Positions 29,602 through 51,055 of a stretch of DNA of 64,000 bases are shown one piece after another. The stretch spans positions 72,786,201 through 72,850,200 of the forward strand of contig CM059562.1 in the NCBI GenBank assembly GCA_030386875.1, in the 5' to 3' direction. The translations under genes and the position numbers were made by a program. The DNA comes from Morinoia aosen. Its lineage: Eukaryota; Arthropoda; Malacostraca; Amphipoda; Talitridae. The notes under the pieces were generated by a model. That model had not been told where the DNA came from and ran no database searches. It saw only the letters and a list, made by a program, of their open reading frames with translations. Every line of letters begins with the position of its first letter. Within the stretch, counting starts at the first letter, position 1.

Positions 29602-29722
29602 ACAAATGTGCGAGTTTTTTTAGTTCGGTTTTCATAAATGATGCCTTTTACGGTATTACTCTACTAAGATGTACTAGTATGAGCACCTCTACGTCCTAGT
29701 ATGAGCACCTCTACGTCCTAGT
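29602..29722 (-). repeat. Minisatellite-bearing dispersed repeat, inverted copy
   Basis: About 60 bp containing ggttttcataaatgatg and cggtattactctacta, followed by about 2.5 copies of a 22-bp unit, tatgagcacctctacgtcct. The whole is the reverse complement of 40100-40262. Flank and minisatellite therefore travelled or were duplicated together. Confidence 0.85.
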
Positions 29723-30845
29723 AATGTTCTCATCCGCTTCTAGATGGTTTTTCTTTTCGAGCATAGTCTTTAGATACACTTACTCTAGAAATGATAGAAT
29801 CCAAAATTAATTCCAAGAAAAGTGTATCAGGATCCAAGAATTTCCACAACAAACGTCTTTCCTTCCACTCTTTAGCAGAGATAATTTTTGTCTTCAGTAA
29901 TTTCATCGCCACAAGATAAACACCAGCACGTCAAAAAAGCGCTAATAAGAAAGTCCATGGCTTCAAACAAGAAAATACACTTCTTATGTCACTATCCTGG
30001 AGTGCTTCGTTCAGTGCGTGCGCCCAGAAGACTGCCAGCATTCCTGATGAAGCTAGCAAGAGCAAAAGCGGTGTAATGATATTTGGTGAGAGGACACCGT
30101 GGAGTTATTTGTGGCCCAGTAAAACACTTTGGTCGGGTAATGACCACCCTTATTAGGCTTCAGAGCCTTCTCTTGGCAGCACAAAATAGGAATCACAAGA
30201 GCAAAAAACGTCCTCGGGTCACACCATATAACTTAGGCAACTCATGGTATATTCATGCACTCGCTTGTGCTCTGTTTCTCATCAAAGGAAGGAATCTGAA
30301 GTGTGAGATAAAGTTCGTGTGAGTTATGAGTTACATACTTGCAATGGAAATTTATTTGTTTCTGCGATCTTTGCGTGATATGCCAAACGTTTGTTATTAA
30401 TAATTCTGTTTAATTACGTTATTGATTTTAGATGCTTATGAACTGAATTATTGAGGCTGTCTTTCAGTCGCTAAGTTTATTCGTTGTTAAGACCTAACAT
30501 AGGGACAACAATAACTGTGAGTAACAGCAACTTTCAATAAAAATTAGCATTAATTTATGCTATTGTCTCACGTGAGGGATTAAAAAAAAACATTTATGAA
30601 CGTTAATCTAATGCTCCCTTTTTAAGAAAGCTTAAAGTCCTTAAAGAAATTTAGAGACACAAAGATTAAAAACTTGTGTCATCATGACTGCTGCCGCGCA
30701 TCAACAAATGTTACCCAAACTTGTGGAATAAATTCGCACGGTCGAGATCGCGTGGATATGAAAATGCATAAAAATTTCAGTGCGGGTTAAACAGAGCTTA
30801 AAACGAGTGTAATTTTTTCACCGTTGCATCTGTAATGTCAACCCC
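29723..30845. other. Unique AT-rich spacer
   Basis: No gene recognised; frames of 60-79 codons here have no domain. Confidence 0.4.
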
Positions 30846-31690: not shown

Positions 31691-33779
31691 TAGATGCCCC
31701 GGCGAAAAACTTGGAGTGGGAATAATGAACGAGGAAGCAGTCACTCAACGGAGAGATGATTGAAAGGTGCCGTGCTACGATTGATGAGTGGGAGCTCGGA
31801 GTGTAATGAGAGTGTCTCGAAAGAGACAGATGGACTGAGAGTAATTACGTTCGATAGAAAACTCGATTTCTGCAGTGTTTTGAAGCAATTGTACCTTATC
31901 ACGAAGGTCAATCAGGTAAGTACCTCCAGAAAGAAAAATGAGATTATTTTCCAAAGTTCGACCAAGCACTGCAATTAGCCGGAAGAAAGTATTTTTGAAG
32001 GATGAAATCACATGCGCTGGATATTTATCGTTTCTCATCTGTTGTTTTAGTAAAGCTTATTGATAATAATGCACATGAAATACGATTATTGCATTGCGTT
32101 GCGAACATGAATTTCCTTTGTATTTAAAAGAAGTTATAAGCGAAAGGAAGCTATGTTGAGCTATGTTGAGAAGGAACTCGTAAAACTACGTTCTTCCATT
32201 TCTGGAGTCCCTAAATGGATGTTGTAGCTCCCTTGAAACTTGATTGAGTAGAGCCGTTTCAAAAAGTTCGTTTTTGATCGCTGTCGGATCTTTTCGTGCA
32301 ATTTTTATTCCAGTCTTGGTGTTTTTTTCAGCTCTGCGTTTCTCTACAGGGCCGCAAAACTCGAACGGAATTGTTTAGCCAGGCTGGGAACAAAGGGCCT
32401 TTAAAGTTGAATTTTTACAGCAGCACGGGAGGGGCAATCACGTAATGTCCTCTATTTGCAATCGAAATTTCTGGGCTGGAAAAAGGTACCCCGTAATTCC
32501 CGCTTCTGGGAAACGATACTTCTTGCATCACGTGTGCTGCGCTTAATGTTTCGAGTGTGAAACAAAATCAATTTTAACATAGTTACACCTATGGCATTAC
32601 CCAAGGGCAAAGCTTATTTCCATTGGTTAGCACTACTTCATTTCGGATGGATTTTGCAAAACTGAAAACTTATTTTGGGGTTCTACTACGCAATTAAAAC
32701 AGCCGCCGGTTTTTGCAGTCTTGTCATAGAAATATTTTTTTGTTCAAATCTGTATAAAATTTTTTTCCGAATGTGCATATTGTGTTGGGAACATCATTTA
32801 CGCATGGTAATAGTTGTGGTAAGAAAATTTTACCAGCATTTTCAGTAGCTTAGACTAAATTGCACCAACGGGCATCTATTGCACATGTGCGAAGCATTTC
32901 ATCTTCAAATATCAACATGACTCACCGTTACTTTGATTCTTTGCAACCAATAGCTTTAAAGAAATATCTAGTCGTCTATATTAATATTTACAGACTTACG
33001 GGAAAGTTTTGGCATGCACTAGTTTCTTCTTATTTAAACCGCTACAGTTAATGGTTGACAAAAATCGACATTCTTATTTTCTTTTTTGGCAGGATAACTT
33101 CGTCTCAAAGTTCGCGATCTTTTTAAATAGTTCCTTTCCACATTCATGTAAAATTCTTACATTCGCCTCGAAGTCATTCACCAATCACCTTCACTTTAAT
33201 TCCAATCAAAACCAACGCATCCCATATTTTTTAGCTGGAATACACTCGTAACATTCATTCCTTACGCACAATCATCCCATCTCATTTTTCCGTGGAAGTT
33301 GATCACCGCAACTCCAGGCCTCTGTGCATAAACAAAACCTCAGACTGTTAGTGAGTGAAGCCAAGACTCTCGTGAACTTTCGTTGCTGCGGTGCACGTCT
33401 CCCGCTTAAATCAAGCCCGTACAATCCCACAAATTCTGCAAAGGAACAGAAAATGAGACTCCGAGTGCCGAACTCCAGGCCTGCCCGGATCAATACCACC
33501 ATATTTATTGACCCTGGAAATACCCACTCCTTGACCTAGGACCTCTGATGCCCAGGTAATGTACATCACGTGTCGCGACCCTTTATTAGTAACGTGGATG
33601 ACGACGTGCGTTCCCCCCAGAGTTCCGGGAATGTCAGACCCTGAAAATGTTTCGATGGTCACTGGTATGCGGGGAGCACTTGATGCATTGAGGGCCTAAA
33701 GTGTTGCTGCGGTTGTGATGAGCGACTTCTGTCTCGACGGCGCTGAATGTGATGAAGTGTTGAGGCATTCTTCACGGCA
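31691..33779. other. Unique spacer, no gene recognised
   Basis: Frames up to 87 codons overlap on both strands and resemble nothing known. A small tandem agctatgttg duplication lies near 32152. Confidence 0.4.
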
Positions 33780-33935
33780 TTGTTTTGTTTGACTCGTGCG
33801 TATTTTGTTTGATTCGTGGGTATTCTGTTTGATCCGAACGTATTCTGTTTGATTCGTGCGTATTTTGTGTGATTTTGCTTATTCTGTTTGATTCGTGCGT
33901 ATTCGAGAATTTGATTCGAGCGTATTGGAGAAGCT
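33780..33935. repeat. 22-bp minisatellite
   Basis: Six to seven copies of gtttgattcgtgcgtatttt plus two bases, with substitutions. The minus-strand reading gives repeated THESNRI-like peptides with no known meaning. Confidence 0.85.
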
Positions 33936-34254
33936 GGGAAGGTTTGCTGCTAACTCTCCAATATCGCTTGTGAAAGCGTGCAAACAACGTCCGCAAAATA
34001 CCGCATTGCACGCACTTGAATAAATAGTTCCCCATGAGCCGCGAAGCGAGTCCAAATGCGGTTATTGACTAGCAAAATTAGCGGCTTCTGCTACACTGGC
34101 GTAAATCACCATGAGAAGACAGATGACTGTTCAGTGACAGAAGTGCTCGCACACGATAGTGTGTAAATCAATTGACTCTCAACAGAATACAGGCAAGATT
34201 TGAACTTTTTCCGAGACAAGATGGAAGTGAGCATGACAGTTTTTTGCACTGTGA

Positions 34255-34370
34255 TAACCTACGTGGTTCTTAGTAAAATTGGCCAGTAGAGAAAGCTGAC
34301 GGGTCATTAATCAATCTGGAGGGCCATTAATATACTGTAGGGTCATACTGTAATGTATTGAATACTGAAG
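34255..34370 (+). repeat. Dispersed repeat, partial copy
   Basis: Similar to 41290-41395. Shared blocks are gttctta/gttcttg then gtaaaattgg, ctgtagggtcat-like words, and gggtcatactgt followed by gaata. Divergence is substantial. The remaining sequence up to 34868 is unremarkable AT-rich DNA. Confidence 0.6.
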
Positions 34371-34868
34371 GGTCATTAATTTCGTGATAATTGAAATCAA
34401 TGGAGCATATTCAGTTTACTTTTGAAACATTTCATTCCCAGTGTAGTGTTTGTATCAAAAATAAATGAGTAGCTTAGACGAAAACAAATCACTTCAATGA
34501 ATCTATTGCAGTAAAATTCCACGAAAAACATTAGCCACATGCATTCCGATAGAACTGAATCATTTGCTGCTTCATGAGATTGATAGAAGCTATGGATAAT
34601 TTATTGATAGAAGCCATGCATAATTTAGCAATCGTGTGCTGCTTATCGAACTGCTCACCTCATTCCATTTGAAGAGATAAATCCATAAGCTCTTCAATTC
34701 ATCGTCTGGTTGATACAGTTAACATTTTTAATTCTAACTCAGAAGCGTCTATTTGTTTGTACATTGATCAGACTATTAGAAACGTGAATAATTAAAACTA
34801 AACCTATTCGATAATTGAACACATATACGTCTTGCGTGTGAGGTTAGTAAGGCCGACAGTTGTAAAAA

Positions 34869-35260
34869 GTTATCTACTATGTAAATTGTCTCACAATTGT
34901 ATGTAAATAGTCTCACAATTGTCTCTACTATGTAAATTGTCTCACAATTGTATGTAAATAGTCTCACAATTGTCTCTACTATGTAAATTTTCTCTACTAT
35001 GCAAATTGTCTCACAATTGTATGTAAATAGTCTCAGAATTGTCTCTACTATGTAAATTTTCTCTACTATGCAAATTGTCTCACAATTGTATGTAAATAGT
35101 CTCACAATTGTCTCTACTATGTAAATTGTCTCTACTATGCAAATTGTCTTACAATTGTATGTAAATAGTCTCACGATTGTCTCTACTGTTTAAATTGTCT
35201 CACAATTGTCTCTACGTTGTAGTTTGTCTAACAGCTGTCTATACCATGTAAATTTTCTAC
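34869..35260. repeat. 51/69-bp composite minisatellite with acaattgt palindromes
   Basis: Built from two submodules, ctctactatgtaaattgt (18 bp) and ctcacaattgtatgtaaatagt. The landmark atgtaaatag recurs at 34901, 34952, 35021, 35090 and 35159. The step is 51 bp once, then 69 bp three times; the 18-bp difference equals one extra ctctactatgtaaa module. Each unit carries two copies of the palindrome acaattgt. The 132-codon minus-strand frame at 34776-35174 is the repeat read through. Confidence 0.9.
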
Positions 35261-35576
35261 TATGCGCTGTGTAAAATCTGAATGATGCTTTCATTAAGAA
35301 TTTGCAATCGTTCAGATATCATCTAAGATTTCATAGAGTCCACCAATCTTGGCGAATATATTAAAAAATATATCTGAAACAATTAATTCAAAGGGCATGA
35401 TGTTGCTGTAATTCATTATAACTAAGTTACATGGATATGTGTTAAACTGGCTAATTCTAATCTAGGTGTGAAACAAATATTATGGTTCATCATATTATAA
35501 AATATAGTGAAAATGAAAACATTTGCCTCGTAATGACAGCTCCAATTCTATTTCTAATTTTTTTTCTTAAGCTTCC
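35261..35576. other. AT-rich spacer left of the satellite
   Basis: No feature recognised. Confidence 0.4.
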
Positions 35577-38500
35577 AATTCATTCAGATGAAATAAAACA
35601 GAATATAAAATGGCAACAGAAAGGAACCAAGTGACCTACTTGGCTCTTTTCTGTTTTTATATTATTATCAATAATATCATATTATATTATTATCTATACG
35701 CATACCATTCTTTCAGATAGTATGCATATAAAATGGCAACGGGAAGGAGCCAAGTGACCTACTTGGCTCTTTTCTGTTTTTATATTATTATCAATAATAT
35801 CATATTATATTATTATCTATACGCATACCATTCTTTCAGATAGTATGCATATAAAATGGCAACGGGAAGGAGCCAAGTGACCTACTTGGCTCTTTTCTGT
35901 TTTTATATTATTATCAATAATATCATATTATATTATTATCCATACGCATACCATTCTTTCAGATAGTATGCATATAAAATGGCAACGGGAAGGAGCCAAG
36001 TGACCTACTTGGCTCTTTTCTGTTTTTATATTATTATCAATAATATCATATTATATTATTATCTATACGCATACCATTCTTTCAGATAGTATGCATATAA
36101 AATGGCAACGGGAAGGAGCCAAGTGACCTACTTGGCTCTTTTCTGTTTTTATATTATTATCAATAATATCATATTATATTATTATCTATACGCATACCAT
36201 TCTTTCAGATAGTATGCATATAAAATGGCAACGGGAAGGAGCCAAGTGACCTACTTGGCTCTTTTCTGTTTTTATATTATTATCAATAATATCATATTAT
36301 ATTATTATCTATACGCATACCATTCTTTCAGATAGTATGCATATAAAATGGCAACGGGAAGGAGCCAAGTGACCTACTTGGCTCTTTTCTGTTTTTATAT
36401 TATTATCAATAATATCATATTATATTATTATCTATACGCATACCATTCTTTCAGATAGTATGCATATAAAATGGCAACGGGAAGGAGCCAAGTGACCTAC
36501 TTGGCTCTTTTCTGTTTTTATATTATTATCAATAATATCATATTATATTATTATCTATACGCATACCATTCTTTCAGATAGTATGCATATAAAATGGCAA
36601 CGGGAAGGAGCCAAGTGACCTACTTGGCTCTTTTCTGTTTTTATATTATTATCAATAATATCATATTATATTATTATCTATACGCATACCATTCTTTCAG
36701 ATAGTATGCATATAAAATGGCAACGGGAAGGAGCCAAGTGACCTACTTGGCTCTTTTCTGTTTTTATATTATTATCAATAATATCATATTATATTATTAT
36801 CTATACGCATACCATTCTTTCAGATAGTATGCATATAAAATGGCAACGGGAAGGAGCCAAGTGACCTACTTGGCTCTTTTCTGTTTTTATATTATTATCA
36901 ATAATATCATATTATATTATTATCTATACGCATACCATTCTTTCAGATAGTATGCATATAAAATGGCAACGGGAAGGAGCCAAGTGACCTACTTGGCTCT
37001 TTTCTGTTTTTATGTTATTATCAATAATATCATATTATATTATTATCTGTACGCATACCATTCTTTCAGATAGTATGCATATAAAATGGCAACGGGAAGG
37101 AGCCAAGTGACCTACTTGGCTCTTTTCTGTTTTTATATTATTATCAATAATATCATATTATATTATTATCTATACGCATACCATTCTTTCAGATAGTATG
37201 CATATAAAATGGCAACAGAAAGGAACCAAGTGACCTACTTGGCTCTTTTCTGTTTTTATATTATTATCAATAATATCATATTATATTATTATCTATACGC
37301 ATACCATTCTTTCAGATAGTATGCATATAAAATGGCAACGGGAAGGAGCCAAGTGACCTACTTGGCTCTTTTCTGTTTTTATATTATTATCAATAATATC
37401 ATATTATATTATTATCTATACGCATACCATTCTTTCAGATAGTATGCACATAAAATGGCAACGGGAAGGAGCCAAGTGACCTACTTGGCTCTTTTCTGTT
37501 TTTATATTATTATCAATAATATCATATTATATTATTATCTATACGCATACCATTCTTTCAGATAGTATGCATATAAAATGGCAACAGAAAGGAACCAAGT
37601 GACCTACTTGGCTCTTTTCTGTTTTCATATTATTATCAATAATATCATATTATATTATTATCTATACGCATACCATTCTTTCAGATAGTATGCATATAAA
37701 ATGGCAACGGGAAGGAGCCAAGTGACCTACTTGGCTCTTTTCTGTTTTTATATTATTATCAATAATATCATATTATATTATTATCTATACGCATACCATT
37801 CTTTCAGATAGTATGCATATAAAATGGCAACGGGAAGGAGCCAAGTGACCTACTTGGCTCTTTTCTGTTTTTATATTATTATCAATAATATCATATTATA
37901 TTATTATCTATACGCATACCATTCTTTCAGATAGTATGCATATAAAATGGCAACGGGAAGGAGCCAAGTGACCTACTTGGCTCTTTTCTGTTTATATATT
38001 ATTATCAATAATATCATATTATATTATTATCTATACGCATACCATTCTTTCAGATAGTATGCATATAAAATGGCAACGGGAAGGAGCCAAGTGACCTACT
38101 TGGCTCTTTTCTGTTTTTATATTATTATCAATAATATCATATTATATTATTATCTATACGCATACCATTCTTTCAGATAGTATGCATATAAAATGGCAAC
38201 GGGAAGGAGCCAAGTGACCTACTTGGCTCTTTTCTGTTTTTATATTATTATCAATAATATCATATTATATTATTATCTATACGCATACCATTCTTTCAGA
38301 TAGTATGCATATAAAATGGCAACGGGAAGGAGCCAAGTGACCTACTTGGCTCTTTTCTGTTTTTATATTATTATCAATAATATCATATTATATTATTATC
38401 TATACGCATACCATTCTTTCAGATAGTATGCATATAAAATGGCAACGGGAAGGAGCCAAGTGACCTACTTGGCTCTTTTCTGTTTTTATATTATTATCAA

Positions 38501-38834
38501 TAATATCATATTATATTATTATCTATACGCATACCATTCTTTCAGATAGTATGCATATAAAATGGCAACGGGAAGGAGCCAAGTGACCTACTTGGCTCTT
38601 TTCTGTTTTTATATTATTATCAATAATATCATATTATATTATTATCTATACGCATACCATTCTTTCAGATAGTATGCATATAAAATGGCAACGGGAAGGA
38701 GCCAAGTGACCTACTTGGCTCTTTTCTGTTTTTATATTATTATCAATAATATCATATTATATTATTATCTATACGCATACCATTCTTTCAGATAGTATGC
38801 ATATAAAATGGCAACGGGAAGGAGCCAAGTGACC
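35577..38834. repeat. 123-bp satellite, about 26 nearly identical monomers
   Basis: The landmark gtgacctacttgg occurs at 35631, 35754, 35877 and 36000, exactly 123 bp apart, and continues in step to 38834. Most monomers are identical. Scattered variants include acagaaaggaacc in the first copy and in copies at about 37212 and 37581, offsets of 13 and 3 monomers. Each monomer contains three inverted repeats, for example gagccaagt-gacct-acttggctc at 35747-35769, atattatt-atc-aataatat at 35782-35800, and an 11-bp arm pair with one mismatch at 35818-35853. The leftmost copy is diverged and the array stops abruptly inside the first hairpin loop. There is no open frame, and no spacer variation as in a CRISPR array. 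Confidence 0.97.
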
Positions 38835-39683
38835 CATTCTCGGGTTGTCCCCAACTGCCGTGCCCTCAGACACCAGTCACGCGCAGGCACCGACGGAGCA
38901 CATAAACAATCCCTAATTTTCACCCGCACACACCAGTACATTCATGATAACACAACAGCTCCGCAGAACAGATAACAGATATTTATTTATTTGTCCCTTT
39001 AATTACCTATTTATTCATTTTTTTAAATAGCTTCTTATTTAGTGATCTATGTATTTATTTAAACAAATAAATATAAAAATCGATCAAACTGTATCGATGA
39101 GTTCGATCTTTAGTTGTTCAACGCCAGCCTAACATGCGAGGTTCATTATCTGATTAAGACCCGGAAAGAATAATTCTTATTCTGTAGTAGAAAGCAAATT
39201 TGGTATGAAAGAAACCTAAAAGCTTCAATTCCCCCCGGAAAAACACAGTTACCTCATCATTTTTCGTAGCCCAATCTTGATTGCTGTTTATCGCTTTGGG
39301 ACATCATAAACTTTTTAGCATCGAGATATAAGCGCCGTTCTTTGCGGGACCAAATTCCGTAATGATTGCGCCCGTGAATCAGGAACGTTAATCCGAAATT
39401 AGGCGTCGGTCCTGCGGGTTGCCCAATAAGTGTCTTAGGCAAGTCGTTAATTCGATTAACTCCGTGAGAAGATAGATGTAATGTCGACGTGCAGGGTTAG
39501 ACCTGATTCTTGGAGGCGCTTGATGAGCAAAGGCCTATTTCGAGGATTTATTCGTTCATTCTTGCAGCATGACGGCAAAAAATGTTCTTTGTTTCCAGGC
39601 TCGTACAGCCACACTACAGAGTTACCGAACTGAGCAGCACGAGAGTTCATAATGAAGAAATAGACGTATACTCATTTGCTGTT
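38835..39683. other. Right flank of the satellite, unique
   Basis: A GC-richer stretch (38835-38960) passes into AT-rich DNA with t-rich runs at 38980-39080. No gene recognised. A 22-bp array begins at 39684. Confidence 0.45.
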
Positions 39684-40200
39684 CATACTAGGACGTGGAG
39701 GTGCTCATACCAGGACGTGGAGGTGCTCATACCAAGACGTGGAGGTGCTCATACTAGGACGTGGAGGTGCTCATACCAGGATGTGGAGGTGCTCATACTA
39801 GGACGTGGAGGTGCTCATACTAGGACGTGGAGGTCATACTAAGACGTGGAGGTCATACTTGGACGTGGAGGTCATACTAGGACGTGGAGGTCATACTAAG
39901 ACGTGGAGGTCATACTAGGACGTGGAGGTCATACTAAGACGCGGAGGTCATACTAGGACGTGGAGGTCATACTAGGACGTGGAGGTCATACTAAGACGTG
40001 TAGGTGCTCATACTAGGCCGTGGAGGTGCTCATACTAGAACGTGGAGGTGCTCATACCAGGACGTGGAGGTGCTCATACCAGGACGTGGAGGTGCTCATA
40101 CCAGGACGTGGAGGTGCTCATACTAGGACGTGGAGGTGCTCATACTAGGACGTGGAGGTGCTCATACTAGGACGTGGAGGTGCTCATACTAGTACGTCCT
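39684..40200. repeat. 22/19-bp minisatellite in three blocks
   Basis: Left block (39684 to about 39833) and right block (about 40010-40195) have a 22-bp unit, catactaggacgtggaggtgct. The central block has a 19-bp unit that lacks gct. Steps are 22 bp at 39684-39706 and 19 bp at 39853-39872. It is the same minisatellite, in reverse orientation, as at 29665-29722. Confidence 0.93.
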
Positions 40201-40262: not shown

Positions 40263-40501
40263 GTTGGTGCTCAAGAAACGACGAATGAAAGGTTAATCAT
40301 ATCACTGTTTACTTTTTCCTGTTGCTCAGAATGCTGGAATTTGGAGTTAACTCATCCCAATGACAAATTTTCTTGTTACCCTAGAAGAGTAAAATGAAAG
40401 GTAACTCTTCCATTTATGATTCGAAAAGTTCAAGATAGAAATGCTGATTCATGAAAAATGTGTGTTTTCTCATTGCTCAAAGATGATATATTTTGAAAAG
40501 T
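40263..40501. other. Unique spacer
   Basis: Nothing recognised between the minisatellite-bearing repeat and the MITE. Confidence 0.4.
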
Positions 40502-40662
40502 TAGGCCGCCCGCCAACTGATGCGATTCCATGCGATGCGATTCGCCTCAATCGGCAGTGAGTTAGGTAACACAATGCTATTCCTACGGGGCTACAAATGA
40601 ACCGTGCGATTTCGCAAGGCGTCGCACCAATAGAACCGCATCAGTGGGCAGGCGGCCTAAGT
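40502..40662. mobile_element. 161-bp MITE with 24-bp terminal inverted repeats
   Basis: The left end ttaggccgcccgccaactga plus tgcg (40502-40525) pairs with the right end at 40639-40662. Twenty-two of 24 positions are complementary. The interior is rich in gcgat/atcgc words, as seen in several insect MITE families with such ends. No coding capacity. A target-site duplication is not clear, so hAT-like origin is only possible. Confidence 0.8.
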
Positions 40663-41907: not shown

Positions 41908-43310
41908 TGTTGTATAGTGACGCTCTTGGGATATTTATGGAGGTTCCGGCTGCGGAGATTTATGAGTCTCGCTCGCTCGGAGTTTCCGGCGGAACCGCCG
42001 ATGCGCGCCTGGTATTTACAAGCGCCGGATAGGTCGGAAGCGCGCCTACCGCCGGGCGGAAGTTCATTGTTCGAACTAGACTTAAGAGCAAGCTGTGTGA
42101 ACTTGAGATCAGTACAATACCAGTAGTCCTGCTGTTCGTTTTGCTATCCTCTTGCCTGGTTTACGGCTAGGCTAACCGATCTACAAGTGCTGTCCAGTAA
42201 ACCTTATATCTTGCTGAAATTCCAAGATATTACAATTGACGACAAGGCTTCGAACTTGCGAAGTGAATTTGAACTTTAAAAGTGCTCTGAAATTAAGATG
42301 GCGTATTCTACAGTCAGCTGCCCTCCGTTCGACGTGGAAGTAGAAACAGTGAGTGAATTCTTGAAGCGCTGGAAAGTACAAAGTGCAGACGCTCTTCAGA
42401 AGGCAGGAAATAATGGTGGTAAAAAAGCTAGTATTTTAATCAAAGCTTTGCCTGTAAACATAATTACTGATCTACAACGAAGAATTAAACCTACGTTACT
42501 CACTGAGGCTACATATGAGGAACTTGAAGAAAAATTAACACAGCAATTTGAAATTAAAAAATCCATCGTCGGTGCATCGGTTACATTTCTAAATAGAAAA
42601 CAAGGTGCTAATGAATCCATAGAAAGTTATGCTAAAACGTTAAATGACTTAGCATCTGCATGCAATTATGGTAGTTGCTGTCGTGATCGTTTATTAAGAG
42701 ATGCCTTCGTGGCTGGGCTACACTCAGCGCAAATTCTCAGCACGGTTCTACAGAAGTGCGATAGCAAGTCCTTCAACGAATGCGTTGAACACGCAAAACT
42801 TATCGAACAATTAAGCTCCGACGCTCAAGATATCATTCGTGAGGAATCATCTTCATCGTATTTCACTACAGGAAAACTCCCGCCGAACTACATATGCATT
42901 CGCTGCGGAACCAAGCAAAAGCATCTTGCAAAGCATCTTGCTATGCTTTGAAATTGAAATGTCACACATGTGGGAAATTAGGCCACATTTCTAAAGTTTG
43001 CAAATCTACGACTGCAGCACGACCTCCTCCTGCTAAGCCTACACGAAGGGGACCTACACAAGGAGAATTTGACGCAGCTCGCACTTACACAGTGCAGTCG
43101 GGAAGAAGCGGTTGCTGTGGCAACGTTGGGAGAGAAGACGTGTTAATGAAGAATTCACGGATGCCTCTACAGAAGAAGGAAGCGGTGTTGCAAAAACCTG
43201 GGAACGAAGGTGAGGAAAATAGGAAAAATCATATGCAGGAAAAGAGTGCAATTAGGAAGCTCTTTGTTATCCTAAATAAGTTCCTTTTTTACACTAAAAA
43301 AATGTTTTAG
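41908..43310 (+). mobile_element. Ty3/gypsy LTR retrotransposon fossil, 5' portion (broken)
   Basis: A GC-richer block beginning tgttgtatagtgacgc and ending tctaca (about 41908-42185) looks like a 5' LTR. It is followed by a short leader and then a gag region from 42298. The gag resembles those of arthropod Ty3/gypsy elements of the Mag-like type. It has an N-terminal FDVEVETVSEFLKRW block, an LIKALP block, ESIESYAKTL and LRDAFVAGL motifs, and downstream a zinc knuckle of the CX2CX4HX4C kind near 42959-43000. I recognise no protease, reverse transcriptase, integrase or second LTR, so the element is broken and incomplete. Age cannot be estimated without the partner LTR. The gag family call is firm; the LTR boundaries are tentative. 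Confidence 0.85.
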
Positions 43311-48904: not shown

Positions 48905-51055
48905 GAAATAATGATATTTCCGAAGTGATATAACGTAGTGACATCACCGTAGTAACATTACGAAGTGCTATCTCCGTAATGATATTACGTAGTAATTTCA
49001 CCGTAGTAACATTACGAAGTGCTATCTCCGTAATGATATAACGTAGTGACATCACCGTAGTAACATTACGAAGTGCTATCTCCGTAATGATATAACGTAG
49101 TGACATCACCGTAGTAACATTACGAAGTGCTATCTCCGTAATGATATAACGTAGTGACATCACCGTAGTAACATTACGAAGTGCTATCTCCGTAATGATA
49201 TTACGCAGTAATTTCACCGTAGTAACATTACGAAGTGCTATCTCCGTAATGATATAACGTAGTGACATCACCGTAGTAACATTACGAAGTGCTATCTCCG
49301 TAATGATATTACGTAGTAATTTCACCGTAGTAACATTACGAAGTGCTATCTCCGTAATGATATAACGTAGTGACATCACCGTAGTAACATTACGAAGTGC
49401 TATCTCCGTAATGATATTTCGTAGTGACATCACCGTAGTAACATTACGAAGTGCTATCTCCGTAATGATATAACGTAGTGACATCACCGTAGTAACATTA
49501 CGAAGTGCTATCTCCGTAATGGTATAACGTAGTGACATCACCGTAGTAACATTACGAAGTGCTATCTCCGTAATGATATAACGTAGTGACATCACCGTAG
49601 TAACATTACGAAGTGCTATCTCCGTAATGATATTACGTAGTGACATCACCGTAGTAACATTACGAAGTGCTATCTCCGTAGTGATATTACGCAGTAATTT
49701 CACCGTAGTAACATTACGAAGTGCTATCTCCGTAATGATATTTCGTAGTGACATCACCGTAGTAACATTACGAAGTGCTATCTCCGTAATGATATAACGT
49801 AGTGACATCACCGTGGTAACATTACGAAGTGCTATCTCCGTAATGATATAACGTAGTGACATCACCGTAGTAACATTACGAAGTGCTATCTCCGTAATGA
49901 TATTACGTAGTGACATCACCGTAGTAACATTACGAAGTGCTATCTCCGTAGTGATATTACGCAGTAATTTCACCGTAGTAACATTACGAAGTGCTATCTC
50001 CGTAATGATATAACGTAGTGACATCACCGTAGTAACATTACGAAGTGCTATCTCCGTAATGATATAACGTAGTGACATCACCGTAGTAACATTACGAAGT
50101 GCTATCTCCGTAATGATATTACGTAGTGACATCACCGTAGTAACATTACGAAGTGCTATCTCCGTAATGATATTACGTAGTGACATCACCGTAGTAACAT
50201 TACGAAGTGCTATCTCCGTAGTGATATTACGCAGTAATTTCACCGTAGTAACATTACGAAGTGCTATCTCCGTAATGATATTACGTAGTGACATCACCGT
50301 AGTAACATTACGAAGTGCTATCTCCGTAATGATATTACGTAGTAATTTCACCGTAGTAACATTACGAAGTGCTATCTCCGTAATGATATTACGTAGTGAC
50401 ATCACCGTAGTAACATTACGAAGTGCTATCTCCGTAATGATATTACGTAGTGACATCACCGTAGTAACATTACGAAATGCTATCTCCGTAGTGATATTAC
50501 GCAGTAATTTCACCGTAGTAACATTACGAAGTGCTATCTCCGTAATGATATTACGTAGTGACATCACCGTAGTAACATTACGAAGTGCTATCTCCGTAAT
50601 GATATTACGCAGTAATTTCACCGTAGTAACATTACGAAGTGCTATCTCCGTAGTGATATTACGCAGTAATTTCACCGTAGTAACATTACGAAGTGCTATC
50701 TCCGTAATGATATTACGTAGTGACATCACCGTAGTAACATTACGAAGTGCTATCTCCGTAATGATATAACGTAGTGACATCAGCGTAGTAACATTACGAA
50801 GTGCTATCTCCGTAATGATATTACGTAGTGACATCACCGTAGTAACATTACGAAGTGCTATCTCCGTAATGATATAACGTAGTGATATCACCGTAGTAAC
50901 ATTACGAAGTGCTATCTCCGTAATGATATTACGTAGTAATTTCACCGTAGTAACATTACGAAGTGCTATCTCCGTAGTGATATTACGCAGTAATTTCACC
51001 GTAGTAACATTACGAAGTGCTATCTCCGTAGTGACATTACGCAGTGATATCACAG
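48905..51055. repeat. 54-bp satellite with 270-bp higher-order repeat
   Basis: About 40 copies of a 54-bp unit made of two related 27-bp halves, ccgtagtaacattacgaagt and ccgtaatgatataacgtagt. A variant beginning gtgatattacgcagtaattt occurs at 49681, 49951, 50221 and 50491, exactly 270 bp apart (5 units), and then at 50653 and 50977, offsets of 3 and 6 units. The unit is a multiple of three, which leaves a 743-codon minus frame (48840-51071) and plus frames open. The peptide is an 18-residue repeat of I-T-E-I-A-L-R-N type, with no sign of selection visible to me. Confidence 0.96.

Follow-up and report, generated by a model that had tools for sequence, protein, structure and literature searches.

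A uniform 123-bp tandem array in the amphipod Morinoia aosen and its possible origin from a MITE-like element repeated head to tail

A tandem array of a 123-bp unit in the genome of the amphipod Morinoia aosen is best, if still tentatively, explained from its sequence as the recent head-to-tail amplification of a complete, non-autonomous MITE-like element of ~120 bp, with a diverged sibling of the element lying alongside. On this view the unit, TACTTGGCTC...GAGCCAAGTG, would be bounded by terminal inverted repeats of 19 bp, and the 3 bases ACC would join one copy to the next. The array would have been placed directly after the tail of the diverged sibling, and one unit would recently have multiplied to ~26 copies. 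Slippage or unequal exchange among the copies is the likeliest route, and the ends, being able to form hairpins, may have favoured stalling. The most prominent hairpin of the monomer would then be comprised of two facing ends of adjacent copies, as opposed to a feature retained within a satellite, whilst the two other hairpins would belong to the interior of the element. That the unit was once mobile is an inference; the symmetry of its ends is observed directly in the chosen frame. The window referred to below is the whole stretch of 64,000 nucleotides that was analysed (positions 72786201-72850200 of contig C7), and the genome to which it belongs, against which two queries were run, comprises 1.99 Gb in 29 contigs.

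Extent and uniformity of the array

The array was placed by Tandem Repeats Finder at 35603-38834, with a period of 123, 26.3 copies and 99% matches. As the consensus recurs unchanged in 19 of the 26 full monomers, the ~26 nearly identical copies described in an earlier sequence-only reading are borne out; the start which it gave, 35577, is too early, as the array proper begins at 35603 and the first 26 bp are a diverged left edge. Changes are carried by the remaining seven monomers. Three of these (starting at 35603, 37202 and 37571 in the frame of the repeat finder) share the linked changes G16A/G18A/G24A, to which the monomer at 37571 adds one more, and four others have one or two private changes each; the mean pairwise divergence among monomers is 0.9% per site. 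A search with model R1 found 26 full-length matches on the plus strand, 19 of them at the top score, together with 26 matches on the minus strand, which overlap the units because the units are symmetrical. This low divergence between copies suggests a recent spread, and would reflect youth rather than conversion. No stop-to-stop ORF of at least 70 aa overlaps the array, the unit of ~120 bp being short and non-coding.

Table 1. Features of the array and its left edge (window coordinates)
Feature	Position	Strand	Basis or remark
26 units of 123 bp, frame TACTTGGCTC...CCAAGTGACC	35637..38834	+	R1 matches; 3198 = 26 x 123
Left terminal repeat of unit 2, 19 bp	35760..35778	+	pair table
Right terminal repeat of unit 2, 19 bp	35861..35879	-	pairs with left repeat: 15 Watson-Crick + 4 G·T
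ACC linker between units	35880..35882	+	either element sequence or, possibly, a 3-bp target duplication
Hairpin 1 core, 9-bp arms, loop GACCT	35747..35769	.	read as junction between two units
Hairpin 2, 8-bp arms, internal	35782..35800	.	overlaps alternative 8-bp stem 35793-35814
Hairpin 3, 11-bp arms with one mismatch, internal	35818..35853	.	
Tail of putative diverged sibling, A-type alleles	35588..35636	+	common to C24 (86%) and C9 (83%)
Left edge, weak further likeness to monomer (AATTCATTCAG)	35577..35587	+	alignment A1; gapped alignment
Unit with A-type tail, as in left sibling	37113..37235	+	
Second unit with A-type tail	37482..37604	+	

Unit frame, hairpins and folding

The right edge of the array, 38834, coincides with the final base of CCAAGTGACC, a sequence present 27 times, first at 35627 and last at 38825. 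The earlier reading had correctly placed this end within a hairpin loop and had taken it for an accidental break; it is read here as the end of a unit. In the frame defined by the edge, TACTTGGCTC and GAGCCAAGTG, the two ends of the unit, form an inverted repeat, with ACC joining neighbouring units; the terminal inverted repeats by which a MITE is recognised are thus found, with 19 pairs, in a frame inferred from the array edge. A terminal stem of 19 pairs is obtained at 4 of the 123 cut points, the observed edge included, when G·T pairs and end offsets of up to 4 are allowed, and 8 of the 123 pass with Watson-Crick pairs alone under a looser threshold. Frame and symmetry are not independent of each other, because any cut in a hairpin loop yields inverted ends, and nor is the whole number of 26 units independent evidence, because 35577-35636 was assigned to a separate sibling. 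The last unit, which adjoins non-repeat DNA, has this symmetry too, with 28-nt arms that are 75% complementary (38713-38740 and 38803-38830). The units, up to and including the last, are followed by ACC, and both of the dispersed tail matches considered below also extend through it; ACC would lie outside the element on the reading preferred here, and as a sequence cannot be told from the element itself. The unit in the edge frame forms one closed fold (-39.1 kcal/mol, z -7.5). Fold energy was nevertheless rejected as a guide to the frame, as another rotation of the unit is lower (-39.5 kcal/mol, z -6.9).

The three inverted repeats noticed in the sequence-only reading lie where it placed them (Table 1). 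For hairpin 1, the dominant one, the location was right and the 9-bp arm length too short, as the pair table gives an uninterrupted run of 19 pairs, of which 15 are Watson-Crick and 4 G·T. For hairpin 2, the RNA fold takes the overlapping alternative stem and the DNA fold the stem originally described. The circular monomer contains three exact stems of at least 8 bp (loops of 3-15), namely stems 1 and 2 of that reading and the alternative to stem 2, the imperfect stem 3 being excluded; three such stems occurred in none of 2,000 dinucleotide shuffles, two in 5 and one in 146. The monomer fold has a z-score of -6.4 as RNA (-37.7 kcal/mol), -6.3 as DNA and -4.6 as RNA of the minus strand, with 0 of 200 shuffles in each case, and the variant monomer at 35603-35725, in which G24A disrupts one pair, has a z-score of -5.2. 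The density of dyad symmetry is therefore above chance by the shuffled-control folds and by the stem counts. Hairpin-primed or rolling-circle amplification, which the sequence-only reading had put forward from this density alongside cruciform formation and protein binding, may also account for the copies. A further control was carried out on both strands with 18 hand-picked array stretches (67-138 nt), drawn from the 62 repeat-finder rows of the window and including the 123-bp array. On the plus strand the 123-bp array had the lowest z-score (-6.5), followed by a 35-bp array at 2222 (-5.4), whereas on the minus strand the latter was lower (-4.1 versus -3.7). This 35-bp array (2222-2373) folds strongly on both strands.

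It could be argued from such folding that the repeat has been retained because it yields a structured transcript, for example a small-RNA precursor or a structural RNA, or because a protein binds it. Folding is strong, more so for the plus strand than for the minus strand, and the positions of the 19-pair stem which are not Watson-Crick become G·U pairs on the plus strand. However, no Rfam family reaches its gathering score anywhere in the window; in 35560-36100 all 34 low-scoring hits (best E 0.028) stay under that threshold, and when the window was scanned permissively, at E 0.5, the array was left without a hit. The change G24A breaks a pair, and the copies are too alike to reveal covariation. 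We consider this explanation improbable.

Mitochondrial control regions can hold structured repeats. An insert of such a region was set aside as a candidate, as the window is without a tRNA (bacterial settings) and without an Rfam match at gathering score.

The left edge and the dispersed tail matches

A query of the genome with the left edge (35250-35640) returned three first-look candidates, all of which were scored. Apart from the array itself, tail matches were found at two loci on other contigs: C24:10042307-10042355, with 86% identity over 35588-35636, and C9:44084827-44084879, with 83% over 35589-35636. Both stop at 35636, the unit base equivalent to 38834, a shared endpoint which rests on mismatches within 4 bases, as the query ended 4 bases past it. 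The bases 35588-35602 differ from the monomer yet match both loci, which makes it probable that the fragment flanking the array on its left is a member of a dispersed family. Its final 34 bases are the A-type tail of two units within the array (Table 1), and the presence of this tail in the sibling and in two internal units may point to exchange or conversion between copies, or else to mixed founders. The sequence-only reading had made the significance of its hairpins depend upon their being kept in diverged relatives; such conservation is not supported by the matches reported at C24 and C9, of 48-49 bp, which take in a single arm of hairpin 1 and none of hairpins 2 and 3.

At C24 and C9 alike, the match is confined to this tail of 48-49 bp, and the query reported no second end in inverted orientation. 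A search upstream of the array, in 33000-35602, likewise gave no inverted counterpart to the tail of the sibling; apart from that tail itself, the best match is 14 bases within a 20-bp minisatellite. A weak R1 match at 35537-35636 (E 0.012) contains the left tail, and gapped alignments of flank and monomer beyond 35577 were discarded as noise from cheap gaps. The failure to find the left end of the sibling there, together with that of the fold argument, slightly lowers our confidence in the MITE-like reading, to the small benefit of the local-satellite and RNA explanations. When the monomer was used as a query of the genome, the array alone was returned, in a search which skips very common words and scores the best candidates only and which does not establish rarity; within the window, no further copies were found beyond chance (best E 0.15).

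These results also bear on a simpler account, in which the array is an ordinary local mini- or satellite: a hairpin-rich 123 bp beside an old repeat fragment, amplified by slippage, with the position of the edge coincidental. Tandem arrays abound in the window, for which the repeat finder lists 62 rows over 64 kb with some overlap among them, and the monomer search which found nothing beyond the array and the left end missing from 33000-35602 are both in keeping with such an origin. However, the edge of the array has its end base in common with both tail matches, and a cut there is one of only 4, among the 123 possible, to yield the terminal stem. We regard the local origin as unlikely, though it deserves to be taken seriously.

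The flanks were likewise compared with a Helentron-type origin in mind, in which the array would be the central repeats of a HINE/DINE-1-like element, or a truncated amplification of them, with the tail as an end module and growth by rolling circle. HINEs are described as consisting of two modules with short satellite-like arrays between them and, close to the 3' end, a palindrome (PMC7492417, PMC4067079), and arrays attached to parts of elements on one side only also feature in one such account (PMC12628747). Against this, the longest exact word common to 35200-35602 and 38835-39234 is 9 bases, direct or inverted, and direct words of at least 9 bases occurred in 185 of 300 flank shuffles, so that there is no excess, as judged by exact words in flanks of ~400 bp. 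An origin of this type seems to us rather doubtful.

Several other repeats and coding traces were observed in the window. At 40501-40660, inverted repeats of 31 nt, 87% complementary and 98 nt apart (TTAGGCCGCC...GGCGGCCTAA), apparently mark a separate short MITE-like element. An array of 54 bp at 48915-51053 (~40 copies, 94% matches) contains two sub-threshold Rfam microRNA matches and long open frames of 744 aa on the minus strand and 233 aa on the plus strand, which are to be expected because the unit length is divisible by three. The consensus units of the 22-bp arrays at 29674-29723 and 39683-40197 are, by eye, near reverse complements of one another, and the second array mixes units of 22 and 19 bp. 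Pfam matches were found in two of the six window ORFs scanned, both at 42280-43310: a retrotransposon gag-like ORF (E 6.8e-05, 23.5 bits, cut-off 24.1) and, overlapping it, a zinc-knuckle ORF (21.2 bits, cut-off 20.8).

Relation to known systems

A close likeness is to CMITE of Acropora corals, described as elements of ~100 bp with terminal inverted repeats and full-sized tandem copies, for which its authors suggest replication slippage (PMC2872659). Both cases would involve short elements with terminal inverted repeats, arranged as whole copies in tandem. However, CMITE is characterised by ends of the form CC[C/T]T, by duplications of TTAA and by numerous full copies dispersed in the genome (PMC2872659), whereas the 123-bp unit has other ends, no TTAA at the junction and no dispersed full copy in the monomer search. 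Xstir and miDNA4 of Xenopus are likewise presented as MITE-linked tandem arrays and as sources of satellites (PMC12628747, PMC9659126); there the repeats are internal to, or captured by, the MITE, whereas here the whole unit seems to be repeated. The HINE of the oyster Crassostrea gigas also has short satellite-like arrays adjoining parts of a mobile element, although its commonest monomers are given as 140-180 bp (PMC7492417), compared with 123 bp here, and nothing like the subterminal repeats shared by its modules was seen in the array flanks, where exact words were compared.

Among the papers covered, a text search did not find the 23-base core, and a term search found no 123-bp monomer with inverted repeats. 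Viral and prokaryote collections gave 0 exact matches to the 23-base core and to the 21-base core. A term search for tandem arrays of full-length MITEs also returned none, and the coral paper (PMC2872659) describes such arrays in different words. Satellites linked to MITEs or Helentrons have already been described (PMC12628747, PMC7492417, PMC4067079, PMC9659126), and reviews propose that small transposons are an origin of satellites (PMC12628747, PMC9659126). Even if the MITE-like reading is right, therefore, the phenomenon is of a kind already described.

A bolder form of the proposal is that the array shows a satellite in the act of arising out of an entire mobile element, perhaps with the insertion or replication of a multimeric circle involved. 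The record of that birth would be the unit boundaries, the diverged tail of the sibling and the two tail alleles within the array; we think this form of the proposal unlikely. The findings also call for caution, as 'hairpins' within satellites can be end-to-end transposon junctions. If the MITE-like reading is true, the uniform array, the readable unit boundary and the sibling at the edge would allow a direct test of the slippage, unequal exchange and circle models.
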